Source of the DNA: Pseudomonadota bacterium | GTDB taxonomy: Bacteria > Pseudomonadota > Gammaproteobacteria > Steroidobacterales > Steroidobacteraceae | DNA length: 44,740 nucleotides | NCBI GenBank assembly: GCA_947459825.1 | Contig: CANHFH010000009.1 | Location: forward strand, 1-44,740 | Direction: 5' to 3' | In this document: positions 2,904 through 30,176 of the stretch, piece after piece | How the letters are laid out: the number at the start of each line of letters is the position of its first letter | Numbering within the stretch: the first letter of the stretch is position 1 | Made by a program: the position numbers and the translations under genes | Notes under the pieces: generated by a model | What the model saw: the letters and a program-made list of their open reading frames with translations, nothing else | Told to the model about the DNA's origin: nothing | Database searches by the model: none

Positions 2904-3887
2904 TCAGCCCCACAACGCCGGCGTCGGCACGCCGATGCGCCCGTCCTCGTAGACGATCGGGTGGTCGCAGTCGGCCGACTGCAGCAGCGGGCCGTCGAGG
3001 TCCACGAAATCGCAGCGCTGCGCGACGAGGGTCGCCGGCGCCATGGAGAGCGAACTGCCGACCATGCAGCCGACCATCAAGCGGAAGCCGAGAGCCAGCC
3101 CGGCGTCCGCGCAAGCGAGCGCCTCGGTGAGCCCGCCCGTCTTGTCGAGCTTGATGTTGAGTACCTGGTACCTGCCGACGAGGCGCGGCAGCGAGGCGCG
3201 GTCGACGAAGGCTTCATCGGCGGCCACCGGCACCGGCAGCGCGACCCCACGCAAGCAGTCGTCCTCGCGCGGATCGCAGGGCTGCTCGAGCAACGCGACG
3301 CCGAGATCGGCCAGATGCGGCGCATGGCGCTGCAGGTCGGCCGCGCCCCAGGAGGTGTTGGCGTCGACGATCAGCCGCGCGCGCGGCGCTTCCTCGTGGA
3401 CGATGCGCACCGGATCGAGGCCGTGCCCGCGGTCGGTCTTGACCTTCAACACCTCGAACTCCGCGTGGGCGCGTACGGCTGCGCGCAACGCCGACTCATC
3501 CATGATGCCGAGCGTGAACGCGGTCGGCCGCGGCCCGGGCGGCGACAACCCCGCGACCTGCCATGCAGGCAGACCGCGCTGCTTGGCCTCGAGGTCCCAT
3601 AGCGCGCAGTCGAGCGCGTTGCGCGCGCCGCCGGCGGGCAGCAGGTCCTGCAGCGCCGCCCGCGACAGGCCGGCTTCGAGCCGCTCGTGGACGGCGTCGA
3701 TCTGTCCGCGCATCGAGGCGATGGTCTCACCGGCATAGTCGACGCCGATGGCCTCGGCCCGGCCGCTGCGGCCATTCTCGTCGGTCAGTCGCACCTGCAG
3801 ACAGGCGATGTCGTACGCGGTGTCGCGCGCGATGGTGAACGGCACCGTCAGCGGCCAACGGACCTCGGTGACCTCGAGACGGATCAT
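2904..3887 (-). CDS. N-acetyl-D-glutamate racemase / dipeptide epimerase, DgcA-like (enolase superfamily)
   Basis: A 327-residue enolase-superfamily protein of the muconate-lactonizing subgroup. Visible active-site elements are the KVK pair (Lys148, Lys150), metal ligands Asp175 (IVDANTSW), Glu201 (LLEQP) and Asp224 (AADEAF), and the opposite lysine region NIKLDKTGG (Lys246/Lys249). Similar proteins epimerise L-Ala-D/L-Glu dipeptides. Those paired with a DUF1611 gene have been described as N-acetyl-D-glutamate racemase (DgcA). The ATG overlaps the stop of the DgcN-like gene by 4 nt (ATGA), so the two are translationally coupled, and the pairing favours the DgcA role. A longer in-frame reading into the upstream gene is a frame coincidence. 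Substrate is inferred. Confidence 0.82.
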   Translation of the reverse strand: MIRLEVTEVRWPLTVPFTIARDTAYDIACLQVRLTDENGRSGRAEAIGVDYAGETIASMRGQIDAVHERLEAGLSRAALQDLLPAGGARNALDCALWDLEAKQRGLPAWQVAGLSPPGPRPTAFTLGIMDESALRAAVRAHAEFEVLKVKTDRGHGLDPVRIVHEEAPRARLIVDANTSWGAADLQRHAPHLADLGVALLEQPCDPREDDCLRGVALPVPVAADEAFVDRASLPRLVGRYQVLNIKLDKTGGLTEALACADAGLALGFRLMVGCMVGSSLSMAPATLVAQRCDFVDLDGPLLQSADCDHPIVYEDGRIGVPTPALWG

Positions 3888-21286: not shown

Positions 21287-22057
21287 ATGGCCAACACCCC
21301 TGCCGACCCGAAGCTCCCCATCCTGCAGCGCGACCACCGCAGCGTGATGGGCAAGGTGCTCTACACCAGCCGCAAGCCCGAGCGCATGGGCCAGGAACGC
21401 GGGCGTGAGTTCTTCCGCATCGATGTGCACGCCGACGGCACCCGCACCTGCACCGCGCACTGCGAGATCGACGACCGGCCGTCCGTGATGCGCGACATCA
21501 CCTATTCGCTCGACAAGGACTGGAACCCGACCGACTGCTTCGTGCGGCTCTCGGTCGGCAGCCGGTTCATGGGCTCGGGCTGGTTCCGCTTCCATCCGCG
21601 GTACGCCGAGTGCGAGACCTTCACCTCGCTCGAGGGCCGCGTCTCGCAGCGCATGGAGCTCGCGACGCCGCTCGCCACCTTCCAGAACCACGCCATCGCC
21701 TGCGACGCCTGGCACCTGCGGCTCATCGACCAAAGAAAACCGGGCGAGGTGCAGCGCATCGCGCAGATGCTGCTCTCCTCGCCGGACCACCGCGGCGCGA
21801 CGGGACCGATGCTGTTCTCGATCGGCCTCAACATCGTGTTCGTGGGCGCGGAGAAGGTGACGGTCGGCGCGGGCACCTTCGATGCGCTGCATTTCCAGTT
21901 CGTGGCCAACCCAGAGCTGCCGCAGGAACACCCGCCCTACGATGTCTGGTGCACGGCCGACGGCGAGTACCTCTTCCTCAAGGGCCAGGTCGCGGGCTAC
22001 ATGCAGACCTACTACGAGCTCGTCGAGCTGTCGCGCGGCCCCCACTGGGGAAACTGA
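21287..22057 (+). CDS. Conserved hypothetical protein, DUF3108-like
   Basis: A 256-residue soluble protein without signal peptide or transmembrane segments. It contains RTCTAHCEIDDRPSVMRDIT, GSGWFRFHP, GTFDALHFQF and DVWCTADGEYLFLKGQVAGY. The later part, a beta-rich fold with a tightening GTF-A-H-F motif, resembles DUF3108/LolA-like proteins, but I do not recognise a function. ATG has AAGGA upstream. It follows the MFS gene by 75 bp, with a possible -10 (TAGACT) in the gap, and is followed by the putative small RNA region. Confidence 0.6.
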   Translation: MANTPADPKLPILQRDHRSVMGKVLYTSRKPERMGQERGREFFRIDVHADGTRTCTAHCEIDDRPSVMRDITYSLDKDWNPTDCFVRLSVGSRFMGSGWFRFHPRYAECETFTSLEGRVSQRMELATPLATFQNHAIACDAWHLRLIDQRKPGEVQRIAQMLLSSPDHRGATGPMLFSIGLNIVFVGAEKVTVGAGTFDALHFQFVANPELPQEHPPYDVWCTADGEYLFLKGQVAGYMQTYYELVELSRGPHWGN

Positions 22058-22072
22058 GGAAAATCAAGCTTC

Positions 22073-22088
22073 TGTGACGCGTGTCGCA
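22073..22088 (+). promoter_or_regulatory. CRP/Clp-like site upstream of the putative small RNA
   Basis: TGTGA-N6-TCGCA differs from the CRP consensus TGTGA-N6-TCACA at one position. Its centre is about 52 bp upstream of the predicted RNA start. It could be chance in this GC-rich DNA. Confidence 0.3.
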
Positions 22089-22098
22089 CAGACGACAC
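22081..22098 (+). promoter_or_regulatory. Inverted repeat 1 upstream of the putative small RNA
   Basis: GTGTCG and CGACAC arms with a 6-nt spacer form a perfect inverted repeat. Its centre is 32 bp, about three helical turns, from that of the second inverted repeat, so the same protein could bind both on one face of the DNA. Confidence 0.35.
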
Positions 22099-22112
22099 TT
22101 CCCATCGCCGCC

Positions 22113-22130
22113 GCGAAGTGTATACTTCGC
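22113..22130 (+). promoter_or_regulatory. Promoter -10 (TATACT) within a 7-bp inverted repeat
   Basis: TATACT (22121-22126) is embedded in GCGAAGT-GTAT-ACTTCGC, a perfect inverted repeat. A weak -35 (TTCCCA) sits 16 bp upstream. Protein binding here would directly occlude the promoter. Confidence 0.5.
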
Positions 22131-22132
22131 CT

Positions 22133-22438
22133 TACGCGTTGCAGTGAGCCAACCCTTAAGTGGTTGAATCTCAAGGCAAAGCGGGAGAGTGATGCTTTCC
22201 TGCACTTGGTCTCCTCCGGGCACAAACCCGGCCGATACAAGGCGCATACAACGCACAATCTCCGGCGATCGACGCGGGCACGGGACGGACGCCGCCTCAT
22301 TTTGGCGACGCCCGAGGGATCCGAAAGGCTCCCGACCGGATGGATTAGCGCCCGCGGAGCGGCTCCTTTGCAGCCGCCGTACAGCGACCGACCGGCGAGC
22401 GTCGACGAATACAACCCCGCGCGAGCGGGGTTTTTTTT
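22133..22438 (+). ncRNA. Putative orphan small RNA, about 305 nt
   Basis: This gene-free interval starts after a TATACT promoter and ends with a strong intrinsic terminator. No convincing protein reads through it on either strand. Local hairpins are visible: CAACC/GGTTG around CTTAAGT, CCGGG/CCCGG around CACAAA, and GCGGCT/AGCCGC around CCTTTGC. Several GGA motifs occur, so a CsrB/RsmZ-type role is conceivable but the motifs are too few for a typical CsrB. The hallmark sequences of tmRNA, RNase P RNA and SRP RNA are absent. Limits are approximate. Confidence 0.5.
22413..22438 (+). terminator. Strong Rho-independent terminator
   Basis: AACCCCGC and GCGGGGTT arms around a GCGA (GNRA) tetraloop form an 8-bp stem, followed directly by eight T. 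It is the best intrinsic terminator in the window and ends the putative small RNA on the plus strand. Confidence 0.9.
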
Positions 22439-22465
22439 GGTCTCGGATCGCCCGCTGCGCCGGGA

Positions 22466-23251
22466 TCAGGACTTGGGCTTGAGCAGCGTGTCGCGCAGAC
22501 GGCGCGCGCTGTCGGCGACCGGTCCGGTCGGCGCGATGGTGAGCGTCTTGTCGATCATCGCGAGGGCCTTCGGGGCGTCACCGGCACGCTGATGGGCACC
22601 GGCGATCCGCAGGTAGCCGAGCGCCAGCAGGTCGCGCTGTTCCGCGCCGGCGGGCACCAGCGGTCGCAGACGGGCCTCGGCCGCCTCGAACTTGCGCTCG
22701 TACGCCAGCACGCGGCTGACCATCACCGCGCCGCGCCATGGGTCGAGCTTCGCGTAGGCCTCGGCGGTCGCCATCGCCTTGCGGGCGCCGCCGCCCACCA
22801 CCGCCGGCGCGGCGAGGTAATACATCACCAGATCCGAGCGCATGTCGTGGTCCGCCGGCGCGAGCTGCACAGCCTTCTCGAAGGAATCTTTGATACGACC
22901 GGCGTAGCGCATCCCGGCCACCATGCCGCTCGTCATCGCCTCGCCGCCGTAGAGCCGGCCGAGGGCGCTGTGGCACCAGGCCGAGCGCGGACGATCGACG
23001 ACGCAGCGTTCGGTCATCGGGATGGCCGCCGCGCGCTTGGCCTTGTCGCCCACCGAGACCGACGCGAGGTACCACAACGCCACATCGTCGTCTGGCGCGC
23101 GGGTCAGACGCTCGCGCGCCAGACGCTCGATCTCGGCGGGCTTGCCGTCGCGGCGCAGCGCGTCGAACGCCGCATCGCCGGCCGAGGCGGGCTGCACGGT
23201 AGACCATGCGGCGGCCGCCGCGAGGACCGCGGCCCACGAAGCCCGCGGCAT
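22466..23251 (-). CDS. Exported TPR-repeat protein
   Basis: A 261-residue protein with an N-terminal signal peptide (hydrophobic WAAVLAAAAAW, cleavage near PASA-GDA) followed by tetratricopeptide-like repeats: LARERLTRAPDDDVALWYLA, SALGRLYGG, SFEKAVQLAPADHDMRSDLV and ALGYLRIAGAHQRAGDAPKA. It is probably a periplasmic scaffold protein; no enzymatic domain is seen. ATG 23251 was chosen because the signal peptide starts there and the ORF upstream overlaps the lipoprotein gene in another frame. It begins 1 nt after the lipoprotein stop, so the two are coupled. Confidence 0.72.
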   Translation of the reverse strand: MPRASWAAVLAAAAAWSTVQPASAGDAAFDALRRDGKPAEIERLARERLTRAPDDDVALWYLASVSVGDKAKRAAAIPMTERCVVDRPRSAWCHSALGRLYGGEAMTSGMVAGMRYAGRIKDSFEKAVQLAPADHDMRSDLVMYYLAAPAVVGGGARKAMATAEAYAKLDPWRGAVMVSRVLAYERKFEAAEARLRPLVPAGAEQRDLLALGYLRIAGAHQRAGDAPKALAMIDKTLTIAPTGPVADSARRLRDTLLKPKS

Positions 23252-23963: not shown

Positions 23964-25448
23964 TCAGGGCAGGTCGGTCGCCCCCATCAGCCAACGGTCG
24001 CACTCGCGCGCGGCGGCGCGACCTTCGGCGATCGCCCATACCACGAGGCTCTGGCCGCGTCGGCAATCGCCGGCGGCGAACACGCCTTCCACGCTGGTGG
24101 AATAGGTCGCGGCGTCGGCGCGGATGTTGCGCCGCTCGTCGAGCTCGAGGCCGAGGTCCTGCGGCAGACCGGTCTCCGGGCCGGTGAAGCCCATCGCGAG
24201 CAGCACGAGCTGCGCCGGCTGGCTGCGCTCGGTGCCGGGCTGCTCGACCGGCACGGACCGGCCCTCCGCGTCCTGCTCCCAGCGGACATCGACGGTGACC
24301 AGTTCTTTGACCTGCCCCTGCTCGTCACCGACGAACCTTTTGACGGTGGTCAGGTAGGCGCGCGGATCCTTGCCGAACTTGGCCGCGACCTCTTCCTGGC
24401 CGTAGTCCATCTTGTAGATCCGCGGCCACTCCGGCCAGGGGTTGTCGGCGGCGCGTTCCGTCGGCGGCTTGGACATGATCTCGAACTGCGTCAGCGTCCG
24501 ACAGCCCTGACGCATCGCGGTGCCGACGCAATCGGTGCCGGTGTCGCCGCCGCCGATCACCACCACATCGAGGCCCTTGGCCTGGATGGGCGCGGTCTTC
24601 GGACCCTTGCCGAGCACGGCCTGCGTCGCCGTCGTCAGGTAGTCCATCGCGAAGTGGACACCGCCGAGGGCGCGGCCCTCGACCGGCAGGTCGCGTGCCT
24701 GCGTGGCGCCGGTGCAGAGCACGACGGCATCGAAATCGCGGCGCATCATCTGCGCCTCGTAGTTGTCGCCGACGTTCGCGTTGCAGACGAACTTCACGCC
24801 TTCCTGCTCGAGCAGCTTGATGCGGCGCATCACCACATCCTGCTTGTCGAGCTTCATGTTCGGGATGCCGTACATCAGCAGACCGCCCGGACGGTCCGCG
24901 CGTTCCAGCACCGTCACCGTGTGGCCCGCGCGGTTGAGCTGCTGCGCGGCCGCGAGCCCCGCCGGACCGGAGCCGACCACCGCCACCCGCTTGCCGGTAC
25001 GCGTCTTGGGCGGCTCGGGCAGCACCCAGCCCTCCTCGAACCCGCGCTCGATGATGGTGTTCTCGATGTTCTTGATGGTGACGGGCGGCGCGTTGATGCC
25101 GAGCACGCACGACCCCTCGCAGGGCGCCGGGCAGACACGGCCCGTGAACTCGGGGAAATTGTTGGTCTTGTGCAGGCGGTCGAGCGCCTCGCGCCACAAC
25201 CCGCGGTAGACGAGGTCGTTCCACTCGGGGATGAGGTTGTTGACCGGGCAACCCGAAGCGCCACCGCTCATCAGCTTGCCGGTGTGGCAGAACGGCACGC
25301 CGCAGTCCATGCAGCGCGCGGCCTGGTTGCGCAGCGACCTCTCGTCGAGGTGGTGGTGGAACTCCTTCCAGTCGCGCACCCGTTCCTTGGGCGATCGGTC
25401 TAGCGGCGACTCGCGAAGGTACTCGATGAACCCGGTCGGCTTGCCCAT
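23964..25448 (-). CDS. gltD: Glutamate synthase (NADPH) small subunit
   Basis: A 494-residue subunit that passes electrons from NADPH through FAD and iron-sulfur clusters to GltB. The N-terminal cysteine clusters are CMDCGVPFC (46-54), Cys67, and CPAPCEGSC (106-114). The FAD-binding motif is [17 protein letters not shown] (about 155-171), and the NADPH site is [13 protein letters not shown] (about 295-307). The C-terminus has [18 protein letters not shown]. It begins 1 nt after the gltB stop, a coupled pair for ammonia assimilation. Confidence 0.96.
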
Positions 25449-25449
25449 G

Positions 25450-30075
<4,626 letters not shown>

Positions 30076-30100
30076 GTTCATCTCCCAACCCCCGGCTCCG

Positions 30101-30129
30101 ACTATAACCACCTGTCCCGGCAGGATTAA
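30101..30129 (-). promoter_or_regulatory. Promoter of gltBD
   Basis: On the minus strand TATAGT (30106-30101) is preceded by TTAATC at 17 bp (30129-30124). The leader would be about 20 nt and includes the gltB Shine-Dalgarno. A CCTG/CAGG inverted repeat lies in the spacer. Confidence 0.5.
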
Positions 30130-30144
30130 AGCGTTGAGGTCGAT

Positions 30145-30176
30145 TTGACTCATATTCATGAGTCACGCAGACTCAT
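30145..30176 (+). promoter_or_regulatory. Promoter-operator of vapBC2 with three half-sites
   Basis: TTGACT (30145-30150), a 17-bp spacer and CAGACT (30168-30173) end 6 nt before the ATG at 30180, again leaderless geometry. GACTCAT (30147-30153), ATGAGTC (30158-30164) and GACTCAT (30170-30176) overlap both boxes. The first two form a perfect inverted repeat. The ribbon-helix-helix antitoxin probably binds them. Confidence 0.6.

Follow-up and report, generated by a model that had tools for sequence, protein, structure and literature searches.

The 44,740-nt stretch of DNA analyzed in this study (the window) carries, at 22064-22465, an interval with a single promoter, a predicted RNA of ~306 nt and a strong terminator. 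The interval lies between the gene of a 256-aa protein on the forward strand (21287-22057) and a convergent gene that begins at 22466 on the reverse strand, and all of its features described below are on the forward strand. The predicted transcript spans 22133-22438, with its start placed from the -10 hexamer TATACT (22121-22126), which sits inside an inverted repeat as the earlier note on this DNA had described, and which aligns with TATACT or TATAAT in most of 17 loci of the genus. A weak -35 (TTCCCA, 22099-22104) precedes it with a spacer of 16, and promoter-like sites number 1 in the interval vs. 0.1 in shuffled sequences. The RNA ends at an intrinsic terminator (22413-22438), the GNRA-capped hairpin of the earlier note, with an 8-pair stem (22413-22432), a GCGA loop and eight T, two of them counted in the stem, that run to 22438. 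One terminator was found in the interval vs. 0.5 in shuffles; a counterpart is aligned in each of the 17 genus loci, and by eye a terminator follows the core in all 14 homologues viewed with their flanks. The set of 17 loci excludes L002, L019 and L020 (chance or terminator-only matches) and L021-L023 (second pieces or unaligned).

Upstream of the promoter, a CRP-like site and two aligned operators had been proposed. The CRP-like site, TGTGA-N6-TCGCA, is present at 22073-22088 with a fixed spacing to the -10 in the genus loci, and GTGA-N6-TC[GT]C is kept in 13 of the 17. The genome has one cNMP-binding match, which scores 290.5 bits with the NCBIfam CRP model (cut-off 266). With CRP encoded and a TGTGA-N6-TCACA-like site conserved, the RNA gene is a candidate for control by CRP. 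The centre of the site lies ~53 nt before the inferred start, which is not a textbook position, and no CRP-like site was seen by eye at the corresponding place in promoters of other genera. The two operators fared less well. Both inverted repeats exist, GTGTCG/CGACAC (22081-22086 with 22093-22098) and GCGAAGT/ACTTCGC (22113-22119 with 22124-22130), and their centres are 32 bp apart, but neither palindrome is conserved in the 16 other genus loci, and the operator reading was rejected for this reason. Arms of the first reach at most 4 of 6 matches in those loci, and arms of the second reach 6 of 7 in L003 and L004 only, with at most 4 in the remainder. Perfect inverted repeats (arm of at least 6, gap of at most 10) number 5 in the interval, compared with a shuffled mean of 1.31, and 5 were reached in 2 of 300 shuffles; such an excess does not make the repeats operators.

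A different upstream element, TGTCG, N8, ACACT (22082-22099), starts 39 nt before the -10 and is common to loci beyond the genus. The CRP-like site of the genus overlaps this TGTCG-like element, while other genera share the TGTCG-like element instead, ~40 nt before the -10, and in some of them it reads TGTCG-N8-CGACA. Of 29 promoters, 19 carry YGTCK at -39 or -40, whereas the 60 offsets counted, with these two among them, average 0.58 each; for this count, -10 boxes were picked by eye, several promoters come from close relatives, and L202 stands in place of L126. We infer that regulators bound just upstream of the weak -35 control transcription; CRP would be the regulator in the genus, and in the family another regulator would read the TGTCG element, perhaps PdsR where pdsRS is adjacent.

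The predicted RNA folds at -128.7 kcal/mol (z -2.21), and 1 of 100 shuffles was equally good. Covariation marks out a core at 22261-22396, closed by P1 (22261-22271 with 22385-22396), in which 11 of 11 pairs have changes on both sides among 36 homologues. Within P1, the 5′ strand of P2 (CGCGGGC, 22273-22279) faces 22350-22356, with both-side changes in 5 of 7 pairs. The P3 hairpin (22287-22313, tip CTCATTTTG) has them in 8 of 8 pairs, two of which are mismatched in the window, and P4 (22316-22333) has them in 5 of 6. P4 is a short, plain hairpin in the window and bears the further hairpins P5-P7 in 28 of the 36 homologues. Between P2 and P1 lies P8 (GCGGCT/AGCCGC, 22359-22377, tip CTCCTTTG; both-side changes in 3 of 5 pairs, as helix 6 of the genus core alignment A2), which by eye ranges from a few to ~80 nt across homologues; both P8 and P5-P7 are variably present. 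Of the model pairs, 33 have letters in the window, and 29 of these are standard there. The most constant letters of the core are CACGG (22279-22283) and CCG (22336-22338), each identical in 36 of 36 homologues; the CGG of the former faces the latter, and their constancy is uninformative on pairing, either way. Of the three local hairpins noted earlier, those of the core have strong comparative support, and the others do not.

The remainder of the transcript forms a 5′ domain (22133-22260) with a CAACC/GGTTG hairpin bearing TTAAGT, a GTGATGC motif and an ACAAC-containing linker. By eye, a CAAC/GUUG hairpin, a GUGAUGC-like sequence and an ACAAC-containing linker recur across homologues, and RNAalifold gives 7 pairs for the domain (12 of the 17 genus loci used). 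The structure of this domain is weakly supported and less certain than that of the core. At L010, L012 and L015 the RNA is shorter (221-223 nt) and lacks most of the 5′ domain.

The earlier note had proposed looking for compensatory changes in related genomes, and these were found. In A2, both-side changes occur in 12 of 26 pairs, the covariation score is 0.380 vs. 0.208 in shuffles, and 94.1% of cells pair vs. 32-46% when the structure is slid along the alignment; further pair types showed no excess in A2 (26 vs. 26.7 in shuffles, with 390 of 500 shuffles as high). Alignment A6 has both-side changes in 9 of 48 pairs. Both A5 and A6 exclude L127, and the search model R2 was built from A6 because MAFFT had misplaced loops in A5. 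The largest alignment, A8, holds 36 of 38 sources (L012 and L049 excluded) and was remade at E 1e-4 because A7 had included three weak matches. In A8, both-side changes occur in 38 of 48 pairs (199 cells), counts that lean towards the R2 structure to which the rows, some of them near-copies, were fitted and that should be read beside the slid control, in which 32-41% of cells pair vs. 92.4% in place. Pairs kept by compensatory changes are expected of a structured noncoding RNA, and they support the reading of the interval as a stand-alone gene for an orphan RNA of ~305 nt.

A protein frame through the interval was considered and rejected, since the open frames of the window are not kept in the genus transcripts. 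All six frames are stopped in 9 of 17 of these, while at least one stop-free frame exists in the other 8 (the window has three), and L003-L005 carry two single-base deletions each relative to the window. Thus, the conserved protein frame that would have told against the RNA gene was not found in any form running through the 17 transcripts.

Neither does the RNA match a catalogued family. The covariance search proposed for the interval was run with Rfam 15, and no family reached its gathering score in the window; four sub-threshold matches were obtained across 10 homologue loci, none of them over the core. The best sub-threshold match, isrK (23.5 bits vs. 50), covers P8 and the terminator, as does a sub-threshold match to Leu_leader, and both were set aside. 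Hallmarks of tmRNA, RNase P RNA and SRP RNA had been reported absent. In line with this, the best of 5 tmRNA (RF00023) matches lies over its cut-off on contig C22 (203.4 bits) and none on C9, RNase P RNA (RF00010) has 3 matches that fall short of the cut-off on C13 and C120, with a contig edge involved, and none on C9, and no SRP RNA match was returned by the window scan. The 6S RNA model (RF00013) matches once in the genome over its cut-off, on C3 and not at the locus. Nothing on this RNA was found by a literature search with most subscription papers and preprints outside its coverage. We class this RNA as a new, uncatalogued family among the orphan structured RNAs, a kind already known.

Homologues were sought with blastn and with three successive models. 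Within the genus, blastn matched 17 of the 23 further genomes, and it also matched one genome of another family, at the terminator only. Promoter, core and terminator align across the 17 genus loci. A terminator-only match in G040 and a 36-base match on C1 of the same genome were taken as chance, and blastn against plasmid and phage collections gave no match. Among 296 genomes of the order, model R1 found 7 from other genera besides 9 of the genus, and by eye those 7 share core and terminator. R2 was trained on 7 long-form homologues, one of them (L018) from the window's genus, with the window excluded. It recovers the window at E 1.2e-9, with other matches down to 1.9e-47, and matched 29 of the 296 genomes, all within the same family; in a sample of 369 genomes of the class, its sole match was in the genome of the window. 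The training set of R3 comprised 36 homologues, the window among them. In the genus, R3 detected a homologue in 20 of 23 further genomes; in the family, it did so in 86 of 217 genomes (own included), spread over 10 of 25 genera, and in 46 of the 114 of good quality. It gave one match per genome except in G011, where a second stands at 4.6e-4. Absences with R3 are not final, as filters were stricter whenever more than 40 genomes were searched and some genomes are incomplete; a laxer search of 38 hitless genomes, 29 of them of the family, yielded one likely member (G205, E 3e-4, beside an rpoH-like gene by eye) and two matches at E 0.04 and 0.07 that were left uncounted. With this reservation, the RNA appears dispensable in the family, since R3 misses 131 of the 217 genomes. 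As far as sampled, the RNA family is confined to part of one gammaproteobacterial family (Steroidobacteraceae-like). Two records titled Klebsiella pneumoniae (L040 and L049) have contigs that carry the RNA and the gene order of the genus, and they are therefore probably mislabelled.

The genes around the RNA recur in part. Ten of 14 extended loci have rpoH upstream and/or a convergent gltD downstream; the RNA is on the rpoH strand wherever rpoH was seen (5 loci) and convergent with gltD wherever gltD was seen (7), although gltD may be several kb away. The immediate upstream neighbour at L168 and L169 is rpoH. By eye, a PdsS-like kinase ends just upstream of the RNA in 7 of the 14 loci, and in several genera the RNA stands just behind pdsR-pdsS; in the one pdsRS pair tested, the regulator exceeded the TIGR03787 cut-off and the kinase fell below that of TIGR03785. 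The gltD and gltB genes of the window (23964-30159, reverse strand) are ~35-37% and 43-47% identical, respectively, to their counterparts close to the RNA in other genera, as if, judging from these identities, the pair had been exchanged for another type. The 256-aa protein encoded at 21287-22057 is 88-94% identical to four other copies in the genus, is related to sequences in many proteobacterial records (179 stretches, of which the best 80 were kept), and matched nothing in Pfam or NCBIfam at E 0.001. A tie between its gene and the RNA was rejected; R1 matched 19 well, plus one at E 0.11, among the contigs of the best 80 relatives.

PdsR is a candidate regulator where pdsRS is adjacent. In genus g34, PdsR exceeds the cut-off in 31 genomes, of which 29 carry the RNA, whereas none of the 27 genomes lacking such a PdsR does; one linked loss may account for this pattern. 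In the family, 35 genomes have both RNA and PdsR, on one contig in 30. A further 51 carry the RNA but no PdsR above the cut-off, and 26 show the converse. These 51 and 26 genomes argue against PdsR as sole regulator and make the link between PdsR and the RNA look like one of neighbourhood. Behind pdsS in 8 PdsR-positive, RNA-free stretches (two incomplete), the best match of an unfiltered search was at E 0.044. One locus with pdsRS and no match to the RNA, L194, has at ~2972-3391 a stretch of ~390 nt behind pdsS with a terminator and many GGA by eye, perhaps another sRNA; at L197 (~3160-3800), an AbrB-like/PIN-domain toxin-antitoxin pair is apparent by eye between pdsS and gltD.

Taken as a whole, these data make it likely that the locus is a free-standing gene for a structured noncoding RNA of an uncatalogued family, which would serve as a structure-dependent regulatory RNA and probably bind protein. 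We favor a structure-dependent, probably protein-bound RNA because conservation weighs on the folded core. More specifically, the RNA may act through this core, most plausibly as a protein-bound regulatory ribonucleoprotein and not as a loosely folded antisense RNA, a part of the proposal that we hold tentatively, at somewhat less than even confidence. The main rival is antisense action, owing to the twin tips seen in the genus. By this account, the tips of P3 and P8, with CUCNUUUG-like loops, pair with Shine-Dalgarno sequences and block translation of several mRNAs, and the rest of the RNA is scaffold. Among the 17 genus loci, 13 have CTC-N(1-2)-TTTG in P3, 12 have CTC-N-TTTG in P8 and 10 have both, and the RNA has its own promoter and terminator. 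However, L013 and L018 lack the motif in both tips, by eye P3 tips outside the genus are often AACUU(U/G)U and some homologues there have a very short P8, and the letters constant in 36 of 36 homologues lie mainly in the core. A trans-acting, base-pairing sRNA seems to us a rather unlikely, though serious, alternative.

Scattered GGA motifs had led the earlier note to leave room for a role in sequestering RsmA/CsrA, in the manner of an RsmY/CsrB-like sponge. The window does have some GGA triplets, 3 ANGGA vs. 1.41 expected, and a putatively controlled promoter, but a count over 15 of the 17 homologues of the genus puts GGA below expectation (67 vs. 90.5 in shuffles), minimum-energy folds leave 8 of these fully unpaired, and ANGGA number 16 vs. 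18.9 expected, such that the relatives do not share the window's excess. This counts against sequestration and leaves a sponge highly improbable. Even less credible is a cis element that serves a neighbouring gene as its leader or antisense RNA. At several loci a gene does start at most a few hundred bases away, in some cases on the strand of the RNA, yet the RNA ends in a terminator, the next gene of the window is on the other strand, and the downstream neighbour and its strand vary between loci, which is incompatible with a leader. A bolder extension of the favored structured, probably protein-bound RNA is that it forms the core of an undescribed class of ribonucleoprotein or catalytic RNA, with the constant CACGG/CCG as the active or binding site, and that pdsR-pdsS was the original control circuit, lost later in some lineages that retained the RNA under the control of CRP and a further regulator; we regard this as speculative and improbable.

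Few bacterial RNAs of this size are known to show so much covariation, and a number of those that have been studied proved to be ribonucleoproteins or central regulators. A lineage seen in freshwater MAGs carries an RNA that is missed by every Rfam 15 model, and that offers a family, a consensus fold and constant letters to mutate, while its neighbourhood of rpoH, pdsRS and gltBD suggests where to look. Among known systems, 6S RNA (RF00013) is likewise a stand-alone structured regulatory RNA, but the fold here is branched. Spot 42 is a CRP-controlled sRNA, and RNAs of its type resemble the present one in having a CRP-like site beside a stand-alone RNA gene; here, however, the site lies ~53 nt before the inferred start and was seen at that place only in the genus, and no Rfam match links the two. 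OLE RNA is described as having an intricate fold, constant letters and an unresolved function (PMC9723947). The RNA characterized here shares with OLE and other large orphan RNAs the intricate fold with constant letters, but OLE is ~600 nt long vs. ~300-400 nt here, the hosts here are Gram-negative, and the present RNA has no Rfam match. Finally, the gltD motif (SRC-18-1) is a riboswitch candidate of Selenomonadales and Veillonellales that is located directly upstream of gltD (PMC8632094). Both are structured RNAs near gltD, but the RNA described here ends in a terminator and points against gltD.
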